DNA of 64,000 nt from Pseudoxanthomonas sp. PXM02 (GTDB lineage: Bacteria > Pseudomonadota > Gammaproteobacteria > Xanthomonadales > Xanthomonadaceae). Each line of letters opens with the position of its first letter. The first letter of the stretch is position 1. The DNA lies in contig NZ_JACVAK010000001.1 of NCBI RefSeq assembly GCF_014851805.1, positions 124,001 through 188,000 on the forward strand. The letters are read 5' to 3'. Below are positions 25,405 through 39,689 of this stretch, in pieces. The notes below the pieces were generated by a model that saw nothing but the letters and a program-made list of their open reading frames with translations, did no database searches and was not told the DNA's origin. A program made the translations under genes and the position numbers.

Positions 25405-25845
25405 TCACTGCCCGGGTTCCCAGCGGGCGTGGTAGACGCGCCAATCCCCGTCCTCACGTCGCCATGCGGTCGTGACGCGATACGTACCGGCCTGACTCGG
25501 CAAGAAGCGTCCGCTGCTGGAGGTCAGCAGGATGTTGAATGCCACCTCCGCGTTCTCGCCGTCCACCTTGACGTCGAGCGGGCCCGTGGTGGCGCCGATG
25601 CGTGCATTCATCAGCGTCTGCGCACGAACCATGTTGTGCAACGCAGCACGATCGATCCCTTCTTCGCCGGTGAAATCCGCGCTGACGCCCTCGATGAAAT
25701 CGCCGGGCTTGCCCGCCTCCACCGCCGCCTGCATCGCGTCGAACTGCTGCCGCAACTGCGCTTCAGGCGTATCGCCGGAGCAGCTGGCCAGCATCATCGC
25801 CACCGCCAGCCAGCAGGCATGCGCACTGAATCCGGTCTTCCTCAT
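25405..25845 (-). CDS. Predicted lipoprotein
   Basis: 146 aa from the ATG at 25845 with AAGG upstream (an ATG at 25866 is also possible). The N-terminus ends in the lipobox MLAS-C22. The mature part looks like an NTF2-like or YchJ-type small domain: QLRQQFDAMQAAVEAGKPGDF, then a central region, and VTTAWRREDGDWRVYHARW at the end, typical of nuclear-transport-factor-2-like folds. Lies antisense-oriented to and immediately upstream of fadD/rpfB. Function unknown. Confidence 0.72.
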   Translation of the reverse strand: MRKTGFSAHACWLAVAMMLASCSGDTPEAQLRQQFDAMQAAVEAGKPGDFIEGVSADFTGEEGIDRAALHNMVRAQTLMNARIGATTGPLDVKVDGENAEVAFNILLTSSSGRFLPSQAGTYRVTTAWRREDGDWRVYHARWEPGQ

Positions 25846-25959
25846 CGAAACCTTCGCCTTTTCCATCCGGAACGGTATGCTCCCAGCAGGCGCCATGTCC
25901 GGCGTTTGCCCATTGAACGCCGCGAGGCGACCCGAAGACCCTGGGGAGGGAGTGGAACG

Positions 25960-27639
25960 ATGAGTCAGGAACGTCCGTGGTTCAAGAGTTACCCGCAAGG
26001 CGTGCCGCAGCAGGTGGACCTGGAGCAGTACCGCTCCATCGTGTCCGTCTTCGATGAGGCGATCAGCAAGTACCGTGACCGCCCCGCGTTCCGCAACTTC
26101 GGCAAAACCCTGACCTACGGCGAGATCGACAAGCTCAGCCGGCAGTTCGCCGCGTACCTGCTTGGCGAGCTCAAGCTCAAGAAGGGCGACCGCGTCGCCA
26201 TCATGATGCCGAACTGCCTGCAGTACCCCATCGCGATCTTCGGCGTGCTGCGTGCCGGCCTGACGGTTGTCAACGTCAATCCGATGTACACGCCGCGCGA
26301 GCTGAAGCACCAGCTGACCGATTCCGGCGCCAGCGTGCTGCTGGTCGTCGACAACTTCGGCAAGACCGCGCAGGAGGCCCTCGCCGGCACGCAGGTCAAG
26401 CAGGTCGTCACCACCGCGCTGGGTGACCTGGTCGGCTTCCCGAAGGGCGCCATCGTCAACTTCGTGCTGAAGTACGTGAAGAAGATGGTGCCGGACTACG
26501 ACATCCCCGGTGCGGTCCGCTTCAAGGACACGCTGACGCTCGGACAGCTGCACACACTGCCCGAGGTCGACATCGATTCCGGCGACATCGCCTTCCTGCA
26601 GTACACCGGCGGCACCACCGGCGTGGCCAAGGGCGCGATGCTGACGCACCGCAACCTGGTGGCGAACATGCAGCAGGCCGGCGTGTGGGTCGGCACCGGG
26701 CTGGACTACGGCAACGAGGTGATCATCACCGCGCTGCCGCTTTACCACATCTTCGCGTTGACGGCGAACTGCCTGGTCTTCATGAAGCTCGGCGGCCTCA
26801 ATCACCTGATCACCAACCCGCGCGACATGCCGGGCTTCGTGAAAGAGTTGAAGGCGACGCGTTTCACCGCGATCACCGGCGTCAACACGCTGTTCAACGG
26901 TTTGCTCAACACGCCCGGTTTCGACGAAGTGGATTTCTCGAACCTCAAGATGACACTCGGCGGCGGCATGGCCGTGCAGCGTGCCGTCGCGGAGAAATGG
27001 AAAAAGGTCACCGGCGTGACGCTGGTCGAGGCTTACGGCCTGACCGAAACCTCGCCCGCCGCCTGCATCAACCCGATGAACCTGCAGGCATACAACGGCG
27101 CCATCGGCCTGCCCGTTCCGTCCACCGACGCCTGCCTGAAGGACGACGACGGCAATGTCGTGCCGCTGGGTGAAGTCGGCGAGCTGTGCATCAAGGGTCC
27201 GCAGGTCATGAAGGGCTACTGGCAGCGCCCCGAGGAAACCGCCAACGTGATGGACGCCGACGGCTGGCTGCACACCGGCGACATGGCGAAGATGGACGAG
27301 AACGGCTTCTTCTACATCGTCGATCGCAAGAAGGACATGATCCTGGTGTCCGGCTTCAACGTGTATCCGAATGAAGTCGAAGACGTGATCGCCGGCCTGG
27401 ACGGCGTGCTGGAAGTGGCCGCGATCGGCGTGCCGGACGACAAGTCGGGCGAAGCAGTGAAGGTCTTCATCGTCAAAAAGGATCCGTCGCTGACCGCCGA
27501 GCAGGTGAAGGCGTTCTGCCGCGACAACCTGACCGGCTACAAGCAGCCGCGCCACATCGAGTTCCGTACGGAGTTGCCGAAGACCAACGTCGGCAAGATC
27601 CTGCGCAAGGAACTTCGCGAGCCCGCGAAAACCGCCTGA
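25960..27639 (+). CDS. rpfB: Long-chain fatty-acid CoA ligase (RpfB homolog)
   Basis: 559 aa. Acyl-adenylating enzyme: P-loop YTGGTTGVAKGAMLTHRN, VEAYGLTETSPAACINPMN, LHTGDMAKMDENGF and the C-terminal VGKILRKELR lysine. GGAGG lies upstream of the ATG at 25960. In Xanthomonas RpfB activates free fatty acids and takes part in turnover of the DSF signal; FadD is the general name for the same enzyme. It ends in a strong terminator, with rpfF 268 bp downstream on the same strand. Confidence 0.94.
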   Translation: MSQERPWFKSYPQGVPQQVDLEQYRSIVSVFDEAISKYRDRPAFRNFGKTLTYGEIDKLSRQFAAYLLGELKLKKGDRVAIMMPNCLQYPIAIFGVLRAGLTVVNVNPMYTPRELKHQLTDSGASVLLVVDNFGKTAQEALAGTQVKQVVTTALGDLVGFPKGAIVNFVLKYVKKMVPDYDIPGAVRFKDTLTLGQLHTLPEVDIDSGDIAFLQYTGGTTGVAKGAMLTHRNLVANMQQAGVWVGTGLDYGNEVIITALPLYHIFALTANCLVFMKLGGLNHLITNPRDMPGFVKELKATRFTAITGVNTLFNGLLNTPGFDEVDFSNLKMTLGGGMAVQRAVAEKWKKVTGVTLVEAYGLTETSPAACINPMNLQAYNGAIGLPVPSTDACLKDDDGNVVPLGEVGELCIKGPQVMKGYWQRPEETANVMDADGWLHTGDMAKMDENGFFYIVDRKKDMILVSGFNVYPNEVEDVIAGLDGVLEVAAIGVPDDKSGEAVKVFIVKKDPSLTAEQVKAFCRDNLTGYKQPRHIEFRTELPKTNVGKILRKELREPAKTA

Positions 27640-27788: not shown

Positions 27789-27907
27789 CACTGGATTTTA
27801 ATTATTCGTTCAGGTGTAGGATCGGCGCGTGATGCCACCTGCGTCACATTAATCCGTCACCCGCTTCCCCTGCCGCGCGGGCAAGAAACCCCTCCAAGGA
27901 GCTCTCC

Positions 27908-28774
27908 ATGAACAACGTCGAAAAACTGCAGCGCACCCGTTCCTTCCCGACCATCCGCGTCGAATCCGAGCCGAGCGGTGATGCGCACTGGATGTACATG
28001 CATTCGGATGTCGCGCCGGGCGTGCGCCCCTGCTTCCGCAGCCAGATGCTGGACGACGTGTTGAGCTTCATGAACTCGATCACCCTGCGCGAATCCCAGC
28101 GCCAGCCGGGAAAACTGCGCCATCTCGTCGTCGCGTCCGACGCGAACGCCTTCAATCTCGGCGGCGACCTCGAGCTGTTCTCGCAGCTGATCCGCGAGAA
28201 CAACCGCGATCGCCTGCTGAGCTACGCACGCCGCTGCATCGACGGTGTCCACCACCTCAACACCGGCCTGGGTGGCGACGTTCGCACCATCGCGCTGATC
28301 CAGGGCGATGCGCTGGGTGGCGGCCTGGAGATCGCGCTGTCCTGCCACACCATCGTGGCCGAAGAAGGCGTGGACATGGGCCTGCCGGAAGTGCTGTTCG
28401 GCCTGTTCCCGGGCATGGGCGCCTATTCGTTCCTGTGCAAGCGCGTGTCGCCGCAGGTCGCCGAGAAGATCATCCTGGAAGGCAACATCTACACCAGCGA
28501 CGAGCTGTACAAGCTGGGCGTGGTCGATGTGCTGGTGCCGAAGGGCCAGGGCGCCGCCGCCGTGCAGACCATCATCGACAAGCAGCGCCGCTCGCCGCAC
28601 GCGCACCTGGCGCTGAACGCCTGCCGCAACCTGGCGCAGCCGGTCGGTTATGACGAACTGATGGGCATCACCGAAGTGTGGGTCGATACCGCCCTGACGC
28701 TCGGCGACAAGTCGCTGAAGATGATGGAACGCATTGTCCGCGCACAGGAAAAGCGCTCCATCCGCGCGGCCTGA
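27908..28774 (+). CDS. rpfF: DSF synthase RpfF (crotonase family)
   Basis: 288 aa. Makes the diffusible signal factor, a cis-2-unsaturated fatty acid, by dehydrating a 3-hydroxyacyl-ACP and releasing the acyl chain. The crotonase core is GDALGGGLEIALSCHTIVAE and MGLPEVLFGLFPGMGAYSFL; the two catalytic glutamates fall at Glu141 and Glu161, the positions known for the X. campestris enzyme. AAGGAG lies 6 bases before the ATG. It converges with rpfC and has its own intergenic region downstream of rpfB. Confidence 0.97.
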   Translation: MNNVEKLQRTRSFPTIRVESEPSGDAHWMYMHSDVAPGVRPCFRSQMLDDVLSFMNSITLRESQRQPGKLRHLVVASDANAFNLGGDLELFSQLIRENNRDRLLSYARRCIDGVHHLNTGLGGDVRTIALIQGDALGGGLEIALSCHTIVAEEGVDMGLPEVLFGLFPGMGAYSFLCKRVSPQVAEKIILEGNIYTSDELYKLGVVDVLVPKGQGAAAVQTIIDKQRRSPHAHLALNACRNLAQPVGYDELMGITEVWVDTALTLGDKSLKMMERIVRAQEKRSIRAA

Positions 28775-28851
28775 AACACCTGAACTCCTGCTTTCATCGC
28801 AGGCAACGACAGGGGAAATCAGGGGGTTGAAGCGCATCCAGCGTCTTCAAG

Positions 28852-37446: not shown

Positions 37447-38328
37447 TCAGGTGGCGTCAGCGCCGGTGCGTTGACGCAGGTCCTGCCGATAGCGCCGGCT
37501 GCATGGCAGGGCGCTGCCATCCTTCATGTGCACACGGGCGTCGCCGGTATCCAGCGGTTCGATCGACGCCACCTGGTCCAGGCTGACGATGTAGCTGCGG
37601 TGGATGCGGGCGAAGCGGCGGGCATCCAGTCGTGCCTCGATACCCGCGATCGTGCTGCGCAACGGATAGTCGTGGCCGCGCACGCGCAGGTTGACGTAGT
37701 TGCCGGCGGCCTGCATCCACTCGATGTCGTTGGCGGCCACCAGGAATTCGCGCCCGAGCTTGCGGATGAGGAAGCGTTCCGGCTGGTCCACCGGCTCCAG
37801 CGGCGGCCCCTCGTCGGGCTCCGCGAGTAGGCTCGCTTCCCCCTGCCAGCGCCGCAGCAGGAAGCGATAGCCCTCCACCGCCACCACGATGGTGGCGAAG
37901 CTGCGTGCGTCCTTCAGGTACTCGTAAGCGAGTTCGCGGGGCCAGGGACCGAACTCGTAGGTCATGCCCTGCGTCCGGTAGGCCAGCACGCGCAAGGCGA
38001 CCATGCCGACCACGTGCACCAGGCAGACCAGCAGGCTGGCGATCGCGTACTCGCCCAGTCGCGCGCGCCAGTTCTCCCAGTGCAGGGGACGTACGCGGGT
38101 GTACCAGACGATGGCGGGAATCAGCACCAGCACCCAGACGAGCGCGCTGCTGGTTTCCCAGACCATCGGTTCCCACGCCTGCACGCCCGAGTCGCCGCGC
38201 CGGAGTTCCATCAGCGTGGTCAGGCTGTTGGCGATGCAGTTGGCAGCGGTCACGGCGATCCAGAATCCCGCCTCCACCCAGCGCTTCCATGGCAGGTAGC
38301 GTTCGTAGGTCAGCGTGTCCTGGTTCAT
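37447..38328 (-). CDS. rpfD: LytTR-family regulator RpfD
   Basis: 293 aa. The N-terminal half is membrane-embedded (four hydrophobic segments between residues about 15 and 130: FWIAVTAANCIANSLTTL, ALVWVLVLIPAIVWY, IASLLVCLVHVVGMVALRVL). The C-terminal 100 residues form a LytTR DNA-binding domain (FLIRKLGREFLVAANDIEWM, ARRFARIHRSYIVSLDQV). RpfD in Xanthomonas is a regulator of this type in the same position. TAAAAT ends 6 bases before the ATG, and three direct repeats at 21-bp spacing lie just upstream. Convergent with the cyclase gene, 1 bp apart. Confidence 0.88.
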   Translation of the reverse strand: MNQDTLTYERYLPWKRWVEAGFWIAVTAANCIANSLTTLMELRRGDSGVQAWEPMVWETSSALVWVLVLIPAIVWYTRVRPLHWENWRARLGEYAIASLLVCLVHVVGMVALRVLAYRTQGMTYEFGPWPRELAYEYLKDARSFATIVVAVEGYRFLLRRWQGEASLLAEPDEGPPLEPVDQPERFLIRKLGREFLVAANDIEWMQAAGNYVNLRVRGHDYPLRSTIAGIEARLDARRFARIHRSYIVSLDQVASIEPLDTGDARVHMKDGSALPCSRRYRQDLRQRTGADAT

Positions 38329-38334
38329 GCGCGC

Positions 38335-38340
38335 ATTTTA
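38335..38340 (-). promoter_or_regulatory. -10-like element of rpfD (leaderless start)
   Basis: TAAAAT on the minus strand, 6 bases before the rpfD ATG, with no recognisable -35. A transcript would begin at or next to the start codon. The missing -35 fits a promoter needing an activator. Confidence 0.5.
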
Positions 38341-38365: not shown

Positions 38366-38419
38366 GCGATTCGTCCCCTGCGCCCCGCGGTTCGGCACTC
38401 GCAGCCTGCGGTTCGTCCC
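38366..38419. promoter_or_regulatory. Three LytTR/AlgR-like boxes at exact 21-bp period
   Basis: GCGATTCGTCCC (38366-38377), GCGGTTCGGCAC (38387-38398) and GCGGTTCGTCCC (38408-38419) begin exactly 21 bp apart. LytTR regulators bind direct repeats on one face of the helix at about this period, and the third copy differs by one base from the AlgR box CCGTTCGTC. They lie 38-91 bp upstream of the rpfD ATG, next to its -10, and 65-118 bp before the acyltransferase start on the other strand. Binding by RpfD itself is inferred. Confidence 0.55.
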
Positions 38420-38483
38420 TTCGCCGTGGTGACAGGCCCGGCCCGCGTCGATTCTGGCAGCCTCACCGAAGATGGAGAACGCC

Positions 38484-39689
38484 ATGCAACGTCGCCACGA
38501 CCTGGACTGGGTCCGGGTCTGCGCCTTCGCGCTGCTGGTCCTGTACCACGTGGGCATGTACTACGTGAGCTGGGACTGGCACGTGAAAAGCCCGGATGCC
38601 AGCGACGCGCTGGAGCCTTTCATGCTGCTCAGTTCGCCGTGGCGGTTGTCGCTGCTGTTCCTCGTGTCGGGGGCGGCGACCGCCTTCCTGCTCGGCAAGT
38701 CGACGCGCACGGCCGACGCGGCCGGGGCGCGCGCACGGTTCCTCGGCAGCCGCTCCTGGCGGCTGCTGGTGCCGCTGGTGTTCGGCATGCTGGTGATCGT
38801 GCCGCCGCAGGCCTACTACGAGGTGGTGGAACAATTGCCGGGCGGCTATCACGAGGGCTACCTGGCGTTCTATGCGCGCTACCTGGGGGCCTACGACGGC
38901 TTCTGCGACGCGGACGGCTGCCTCAGGATCCCGACCTGGAACCATCTGTGGTTCGTCGCCTACCTGTGGGTCTACACCGTCGCGCTGTGGCTGCTCTGGC
39001 GGCTGGCGCCACGCATGCTGGACGCGGCCGGCAGCCTGCTCGCCTCCTGCATGAGCGGTCTGGGCGTGCTGGTGTGGCCGTTCCTGTTCCTGGGCGTCGC
39101 CCGCGTCCTGCTGGTAGGTCGCTTCGAGCAGACGCATGCGCTGGTCGACGACTGGTACAACCACGCGCAGTACTTCGGCGTGTTCCTCTTCGGTTTCCTG
39201 GTCGCCCGCACCGACGGGGTCTGGAAGGCGATGGATCGCCTGCGCTGGCCCGCCGTGCTGCTGTGGCTGACCAGTTGGGCGGGCCTGATCGCCTACTTCG
39301 TCCGCTTCTCGAACATCGATCCGCCGGAATGGCTGCGCATGATAATGCGGATGGGCTGGGCGCTGAACCAGTGGTGCGCCATCGTCGCCGTGCTCGGCTT
39401 CACGTATCACTGGCGTCCCGGCGACAGTCGCGTGCTGCGCTATCTGGTGCCTGCGGTGTTCCCGGTCTACATCCTGCACCAGACCGTGATCGTGGTCGTG
39501 GCGCATCATCTGAAGCCGATGGCGATCCCGCCGCTGATCGAAGGCCCGCTGCTGGTCGCGATCACGTTCGCCGCCTGTTTTGCCGGCTATGAGGTGATCC
39601 GGCGCGTGCGCTGGCTGCGGCCGCTGTTCGGACTGAAGCGCACGGACGCAACGCCTGGCAATCCAGCGCTGGCGACGGAGCCACGCTGA
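38484..39689 (+). CDS. Membrane acyltransferase, acyltransferase-3 family
   Basis: 401 aa from the ATG at 38484, chosen because GGAG lies 6 bases upstream (an ATG at 38472 is in frame). About ten membrane segments. The family N-terminus HDLDWVRVCAFALLVLYHVGMY carries the conserved Arg and His of acyltransferase-3 proteins. Such enzymes (OatA-, NodX- and OpgC-like) acylate sugars or glycans at the cell surface; the acceptor is unknown here. Divergent from rpfD, sharing the box-containing intergenic region. Confidence 0.87.
   Translation: MQRRHDLDWVRVCAFALLVLYHVGMYYVSWDWHVKSPDASDALEPFMLLSSPWRLSLLFLVSGAATAFLLGKSTRTADAAGARARFLGSRSWRLLVPLVFGMLVIVPPQAYYEVVEQLPGGYHEGYLAFYARYLGAYDGFCDADGCLRIPTWNHLWFVAYLWVYTVALWLLWRLAPRMLDAAGSLLASCMSGLGVLVWPFLFLGVARVLLVGRFEQTHALVDDWYNHAQYFGVFLFGFLVARTDGVWKAMDRLRWPAVLLWLTSWAGLIAYFVRFSNIDPPEWLRMIMRMGWALNQWCAIVAVLGFTYHWRPGDSRVLRYLVPAVFPVYILHQTVIVVVAHHLKPMAIPPLIEGPLLVAITFAACFAGYEVIRRVRWLRPLFGLKRTDATPGNPALATEPR

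Follow-up and report, generated by a model that had tools for sequence, protein, structure and literature searches.

Several LytTR proteins have been described together with their binding sites. CoxC of Afipia carboxidovorans (MHYT plus LytTR) is a membrane-embedded one-component regulator, and its target promoter carries three direct repeats at a two-helical-turn spacing of 18 to 21 bp (PMC11347149). In HigX of Caulobacter, which binds the promoters of envelope-associated genes, the LytTR domain comes after four transmembrane helices (PMC13384398), and YpdB of Escherichia coli, also a LytTR protein, binds cooperatively to the direct-repeat pair GGCATTTCAT in its target promoter (PMC4847170). 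In the LRS operons (HdrRM, BrsRM), 9-bp repeats, mostly with 12-bp spacers, stand just upstream of the operons' own promoters, strongly favoring a position 10 bp upstream of the -35 element (PMC6193735). AlgR of Pseudomonas aeruginosa recognizes the box CCGTTCGTC, and these sites need not take the form of direct repeats with a 12-bp spacing (PMC4064291). All three elements, LytTR repeats, membrane-bound LytTR proteins and triple repeats, are of kinds already known.

rpfD is a member of the rpf signaling cluster. One paper describes it simply as a transcriptional regulator (PMC3542200), and the open-access literature on rpfD and LytTR that we searched yielded no description of an RpfD target, which is not proof of absence. 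Here we describe a row of phased repeats beside rpfD in the window, a stretch of 64,000 nucleotides from Pseudoxanthomonas sp. PXM02, and ask which gene it serves and which protein binds it.

Results

Three phased repeats lie between rpfD and a divergent acyltransferase gene

rpfD (37447..38328, minus strand) encodes a predicted four-helix membrane domain fused to a C-terminal LytTR domain. The LytTR identity, asserted in the initial annotation, was borne out by Pfam (PF04397, residues 195-287, E 1.7e-23, 83.1 bits against a cutoff of 22.6). Pfam returned no match for the membrane domain and no Response_reg domain, which places RpfD outside the AlgR-type two-component class; with its predicted N-terminal helices and no receiver, it belongs with the membrane-embedded one-component LytTR regulators. 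It also falls outside the LRS class, because its membrane part is fused and its divergent neighbor is an acyltransferase gene, not a separate membrane inhibitor. An AlphaFold2 model of middling confidence (mean pLDDT, 63.5) placed helices at about residues 12-44, 52-79, 87-119 and 129-169, with pLDDT values of 81-94 for residues 51-150, 49-65 for the first helix and about 45-59 for the LytTR part; the hydrophobic helices point to a membrane location. The best Foldseek matches of the model were the LytTR structure 3d6w, ComE and AgrA-DNA (3bs1), all at E > 0.001. A profile search matched the LytTR part of 3d6w alone (E 2.2e-4), and the RpfD sequence by itself found no match in the PDB at E 0.001. 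The closest named relative found, in a Pseudoxanthomonas metagenome assembly, is 92% identical.

The gene row around rpfD fits the rpf cluster. By Pfam, its neighbors include a hybrid histidine kinase (RpfC type), a receiver-HD regulator (RpfG type), a lysS-type synthetase, recJ, a release factor and GreA; the two open reading frames that we tried as rpfB and rpfF (25405-27555 and 27857-28837, both on the minus strand) had no Pfam match.

The divergent gene (38484..39689, plus strand) encodes a membrane acyltransferase (Acyl_transf_3; PF01757, E 8.7e-26). The assignment reaches the wider Acyl_transf_3 family only, as the OpgC/MdoC succinyltransferase model NF003014 gave 89.6 bits against an equivalog cutoff of 338, and the enzyme would be expected to modify an envelope glycan or lipid. 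Its start is most likely 38484 rather than the in-frame 38472, because GGAGAA (38474..38479, plus strand), a likely ribosome-binding site, precedes that ATG by 4 nt.

Between these two genes, in the position that had been claimed for them and that the open reading frames and Pfam confirmed, three 12-bp direct repeats start on the plus strand at exactly 38366, 38387 and 38408, with start-to-start spacings of 21 and 21 bp as initially annotated. Box 1 is GCGATTCGTCCC (38366..38377); box 2, GCGGTTCGGCAC (38387..38398), is supported by its sequence and by motif fit; and box 3, GCGGTTCGTCCC (38408..38419), by its sequence, third boxes having been scored in relatives too. The phase is that of known LytTR operators, which are imperfect direct repeats at about 21 bp, composed of a 9-bp repeat and a 12-bp spacer. 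By our own count, boxes 1, 2 and 3 are identical to the AlgR 9-mer at 7, 7 and 8 of 9 positions, the degree of likeness that had been reported.

Single boxes with up to two mismatches are not unusual in the window (75, compared with 83.3 expected). The genome search for 21-bp pairs that the initial annotation had called for was made with patterns rather than with a weight matrix. It placed GCGRTTCGKC-N11-GCGRTTCGKC without mismatch at this locus only, in these two places of the 4.3-Mb genome; with up to three mismatches, the pair had 59 genome matches against 50 for the reversed control, which is background.

Box 1 starts 25 nt upstream of TAAAAT (38335..38340, minus strand), the -10-like element of rpfD, which stands 6 nt before the ATG; the site is thus directly upstream of that element, as had been stated. 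The claim that the rpfD promoter lacks a -35 also stood, since a search of both strands between 38250 and 38550 turned up no sigma-70-like promoter with a -35. On the other side, we propose GATTCT (38450..38455, plus strand), of the form xAnnnT and 30 nt after box 3, as a weak -10 of the acyltransferase gene.

The boxes and the divergent gene are conserved across the Xanthomonadaceae

Of 198 Xanthomonadaceae genomes, 117 gave an RpfD match at E <= 1e-30. Upstream stretches of 110 of the 117 were entered (30 + 80); left out of the counts were G017 (a full-length match), G077, G100, G112, G126, G192 and G197 (partial, split or weak matches) and the second RpfD matches in G033, G122 and G126. The 110 genome loci and 13 further loci made 123, some genomes being doubled; 122 were entered, giving 120 distinct regions, and L147, one of the 110, gave no tblastn match. 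A divergent acyltransferase lies 100 to 400 bp from rpfD at 109 of the 122 loci with a readable rpfD start and has no match at 12. L070 belongs to neither group.

In an unconstrained motif fit over the 120 distinct regions, the two best matches were separated by 21 bp in 53 cases and by 20 bp in 44, compared with a mean of 1.26 and a maximum of 4 at 21 bp in 50 shuffles; the weight matrix was trained on these same regions, which are related by descent, and refits on 10 shuffled sets, the control for this, reached a maximum of 2. Autocorrelation over 109 regions peaked at lag 21 (z 3.5), with 20 and 42 next. A pair above 14 bits is present at all 109 loci with a divergent acyltransferase, our own genome and two duplicates counted in. 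Within a fixed 290-bp stretch, such a pair was scored at 98 of 109 loci of the 198-genome set and in 32 of the 32 genera read; L151, with an enlarged gap, scored below 14 bits in its first 230 bp and 18 bits over the whole gap. Conservation upstream of rpfD in relatives was one of the two conditions with which the initial annotation let its proposal stand or fall, and the repeats passed that check. The third box is more variable, exceeding 4 bits in only 52 of the 120 regions. Among 73 regions selected from 106 distinct ones for a best pair 20-27 nt from the rpfD -10, a GTCAC-type end of box 3 was in register in 59 (at 21 bp in 54 and 20 bp in 5).

A hexamer equivalent to the rpfD -10 was found in 103 of the 120 regions, the other 17 having no listed -10-like hexamer. 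The nearest CAT was 6 nt away in 75 of the 103 and 7 nt away in 20. With the hexamer this close to the start codon in 95 of the 103, the rpfD mRNA is probably leaderless in much of the family.

rpfD and the acyltransferase also occur together. Across the 198 genomes, 107 had both, 10 rpfD only, 3 the acyltransferase only and 78 neither (cutoffs, E <= 1e-30 for rpfD and E <= 1e-25 for the acyltransferase; Fisher p 1e-39 without correction for shared ancestry; G134, whose 35% homolog lies elsewhere, is tallied under both). G197, outside the counts, has rpfD, the acyltransferase and the boxes. L246 has the boxes and the acyltransferase and no rpfD match in a 5-kb stretch of a genome that is 77% complete; At L245, a 3.5-kb stretch holds the acyltransferase but no rpfD and no boxes, which agrees with the reading favored here. 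Truncated acyltransferases were seen beside rpfD or an rpfD fragment at L070 (G113) and L247 (G136), the former 5'-truncated and without boxes, which suggests deletions across the divergent promoter region.

Similar pairs stand upstream of LytS/LytTR operons

The genome has six LytTR genes, rpfD and five others, all five with receiver domains. A perfect ACGATTCGTCAC pair at 21 bp lies upstream of one of these, in a LytS/LytTR operon on contig C6; the 6-kb loci of the other four LytTR operons held no pair above threshold. A blind pattern search of 99 genomes returned 54 matches, compared with 23 for the reversed pattern. We chose and examined 20 of the 54, one of which was an rpfD locus (L199), and 12 of the other 19 sites lie upstream of LytS/LytTR operons. 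Because nearly the same pair was found blind at these operons, we conclude that the repeats at rpfD, a real and widely conserved site, are very probably a LytTR operator.

At all 12 of these operons and at the C6 operon, the boxes point away from the LytS/LytTR genes, just as those at rpfD point away from rpfD, and 12 of the 13 loci have an open reading frame in the direction in which they point. By reading, most of these frames have signal-peptide-like starts; the four that were scanned gave one with PD40 repeats, one with DUF5916/CBM9 and two without a match. A bidirectional layout, with the pair between the operon and a divergent open reading frame, is common to L028 2268-2300, L196-L198, L200 and L204-L211. 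An A...T occurs 30-32 nt away on the far side in 8 of the 13 loci and 34-36 nt away on the operon side in 8 of 13.

The remaining 7 of the 19 sites comprise four upstream of PQQ dehydrogenases, two beside P450 genes (L195 2191-3330, pointing at the gene, and L201 689-1843, pointing away) and one beside a GFA-family gene. The four PQQ-dependent dehydrogenases (L193 3-2033, L194 2001-4001, L202 1998-4001 and L203 2-2033) come from four genomes in three genera and were identified by Pfam at L193, L202 and L203 and by 97% identity at L194. At each, the pair stands upstream and points at the gene. A scripted test for a -10 downstream of two boxes was negative at three of these sites and fitted L203 only; only by eye could a third box be made out at L193 and L202, together with an xAnnnT -10 in the register of the acyltransferase. 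The PQQ dehydrogenase is likely a further member of a LytTR regulon.

The operator most likely serves the acyltransferase gene

The initial annotation had joined two roles, autoregulation of rpfD and co-control of the acyltransferase. The link to the acyltransferase held, both in the 109 of 109 loci and in the register of its -10; autoregulation as the main role was not supported. Read like the AlgR box, the boxes face the acyltransferase gene and away from rpfD. Beyond box 3, the A...T of an xAnnnT -10 falls at 31 nt in 50 of the 73 selected regions (expected, 1.6) and within 30-32 nt in 68; these regions are related by descent, so that a binomial chance for this register should not be taken as a true probability. 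At L151, which has an enlarged gap, the boxes and the -10 register stay near the acyltransferase (79 bp from its start, compared with 221 bp to the rpfD start). L051 departs from this simple arrangement: 169 bp separate its strongest pair from the start of rpfD and 172 bp from that of the acyltransferase, and no -10 is in register.

The 12 rpfD loci without an acyltransferase match provide a natural experiment on which of the two divergent promoters the operator serves. Three have another divergent open reading frame (two of FAD/BBE type, one of them scanned, and one of 326 amino acids), and these keep the boxes, with pair scores of 28.3, 28.3 and 25.2 bits. One such replacement, at L199 2120-3934 (G025), is a 604-amino-acid FAD_binding_4/BBE protein with a twin-arginine-like start. 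At the other nine, the next long open reading frame lies on the rpfD strand, 46-555 bp upstream of the rpfD start, and no divergent gene was found except overlapping shadow frames. All nine have lost the boxes (-5.6 to 3.9 bits) and retain rpfD. They fall in three genera (two in g1, six in g7 and one in g29), and other members of each genus retain the boxes and the acyltransferase alike. One deletion taking the gene and the boxes together could be the simple cause of each loss. Because rpfD survives without boxes in three genera, the boxes are dispensable for its retention, and rpfD autoregulation is evidently dispensable for its persistence.

The acyltransferase was not found in eight of the nine boxless genomes, and the ninth, G134, has a homolog of 35% identity elsewhere. 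A search for a relocated acyltransferase with boxes covered 13 genomes (the nine boxless ones, the three with another divergent open reading frame, and G186 as the positive) and found none; homologs at E <= 1e-15 were present in three of the 13, near rpfD in G186 and G047 and elsewhere in G134. In the last genome (L215 1501-4100), a LytS-type kinase, a LytTR response regulator and the acyltransferase follow one another in one gene row with no detectable boxes. Judged by its gene order, this row is a second, different LytTR-acyltransferase pairing.

Because the boxes point at it, a -10 stands at a rigid distance beyond box 3 and the boxes are gone where no divergent gene remains, the acyltransferase, rather than rpfD, is most likely the operator's target. 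We consider it quite improbable that the operator serves chiefly for positive or negative autoregulation of rpfD, as in the LRS model, where the repeats precede the regulator's own promoter. In 81 of 103 regions, the first box does lie upstream of the rpfD -10 at a distance of 23-25 nt, which makes a secondary autoregulatory role possible; against a chief role, the boxes read away from rpfD, they are missing from all nine loci that keep rpfD without a divergent gene, and those of L151 have stayed with the acyltransferase start. That the repeats have no regulatory role, arising by slippage of GC-rich repeats or as a structural element, seems to us barely credible. Single boxes do occur at background frequency in the window, where GC-rich composition yields many near matches, but sequence and phase are conserved over 32 genera, the distance to both -10 elements is fixed, and the boxes recur at other LytTR loci.

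RpfD is the most parsimonious candidate binder

The motif is common to response-regulator LytTR proteins, so the DNA alone does not name the binder. We nevertheless favor RpfD as the most parsimonious candidate. The 53 genomes with rpfD held 41 pair sites against 9 in the control; 28 remain when the 13 that, by our own count, belong to rpfD itself are set aside. The 32 sampled genomes that lack rpfD and have at least two LytTR matches gave, summed, 11 pairs against 12 in the control, and several of these sites nevertheless lie at LytS/LytTR operons. G085, with two LytTR matches, has an rpfD locus without boxes or acyltransferase, and its boxes stand before a PQQ dehydrogenase, a possible reason for its retention of rpfD.

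The main binder could instead be the AlgR homolog (encoded next to a hemC-type gene) or a LytS/LytTR response regulator, with RpfD as a passenger or a target, although we regard this as unlikely. The perfect pair upstream of the C6 operon and the 7 to 8 of 9 positions shared with the AlgR box speak for such a protein, and candidates are at hand: in this genome, the gene for a receiver-LytTR protein precedes one for porphobilinogen deaminase, and close AlgR homologs (62-80% identity) were present in 14 of 14 genomes checked. However, the 14 genomes with one LytTR match and no rpfD match show no excess of pairs (2 against 2 in the control), the single match having been confirmed as an AlgR homolog in three of them, G009, G027 and G050. 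The suggested resemblance to the AlgR box is real in sequence, but AlgR sites need not be 12-bp-spaced repeats (PMC4064291). Nor would such a binder explain why rpfD and the acyltransferase co-occur and lie side by side at 109 of 122 loci. Finally, several box-bearing genomes, among them G053, G060 and G025, have two LytTR matches only, one of which is RpfD, and a close AlgR homolog.

Discussion

We propose, with a probability of roughly two in three, that RpfD binds the triple LytTR operator and activates the divergent acyltransferase gene. RpfD would be held in the inner membrane by its four helices, and its LytTR domains would occupy the three boxes between regulator gene and target, one per two helical turns. 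Bound RpfD would then aid RNA polymerase at the acyltransferase promoter, with its weak -10 and no recognizable -35, and a signal sensed by the membrane domain would alter the LytTR domain on the operator. Binding beside the rpfD -35 region may also tune rpfD. The orientation of the boxes, the weak -10 and the absence of a recognizable -35 lead us to infer activation; repression may be the alternative, by analogy with CoxC, which represses from three repeats overlapping a -35 (PMC11347149).

More speculatively, and with rather more doubt than confidence, we suggest that RpfD and the LytS/LytTR regulators of the Xanthomonadaceae share one operator code and that RpfD regulates a small envelope regulon. 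If so, the code would be a 21-bp-phased row of RTTCGTCMC with a weak -10 about 30 nt later, located where a regulator gene diverges from a gene for a secreted or envelope protein, and the regulon would comprise the acyltransferase and, where it has been lost, the PQQ dehydrogenase. RpfD, although encoded in the rpf cluster, would then be an envelope sensor rather than a part of DSF signaling. We found neither the RpfD-acyltransferase module nor the shared operator code in the open-access literature searched. Through its conserved operator and the linked acyltransferase, a little-studied gene of the rpf cluster acquires a concrete target that can be tested, and the consensus and layout can be used to list the LytTR regulons of the Xanthomonadaceae.

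Compared with the systems described above, the locus combines familiar elements in its own way. Its boxes resemble the AlgR box, but AlgR is a response regulator and RpfD has no receiver (PMC4064291). YpdB is likewise a two-component response regulator, with two repeats and another motif (PMC4847170). HigX shares the predicted four-helix architecture of RpfD; it is alphaproteobacterial, is encoded beside higBA, and the motif reported for it from ChIP consists of an inverted repeat rather than direct repeats at 21 bp (PMC13384398). In the LRS, about 33 nt separate the repeat from the -10 (assuming a 17-bp spacer), which by our own sum is close to the 32-33 nt from the 9-mer core in the acyltransferase layout. 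There, however, the membrane inhibitor is a separate protein and the repeats drive the regulator's own operon (PMC6193735), whereas RpfD has its membrane part fused and its repeats face a divergent gene. CoxC is the nearest described analogue, with the same one-component membrane architecture and three repeats in two-turn phase. It is a repressor whose repeats overlap the target -35, and it senses CO through MHYT (PMC11347149), whereas the boxes described here fit the layout of an activator beside the divergent acyltransferase gene.
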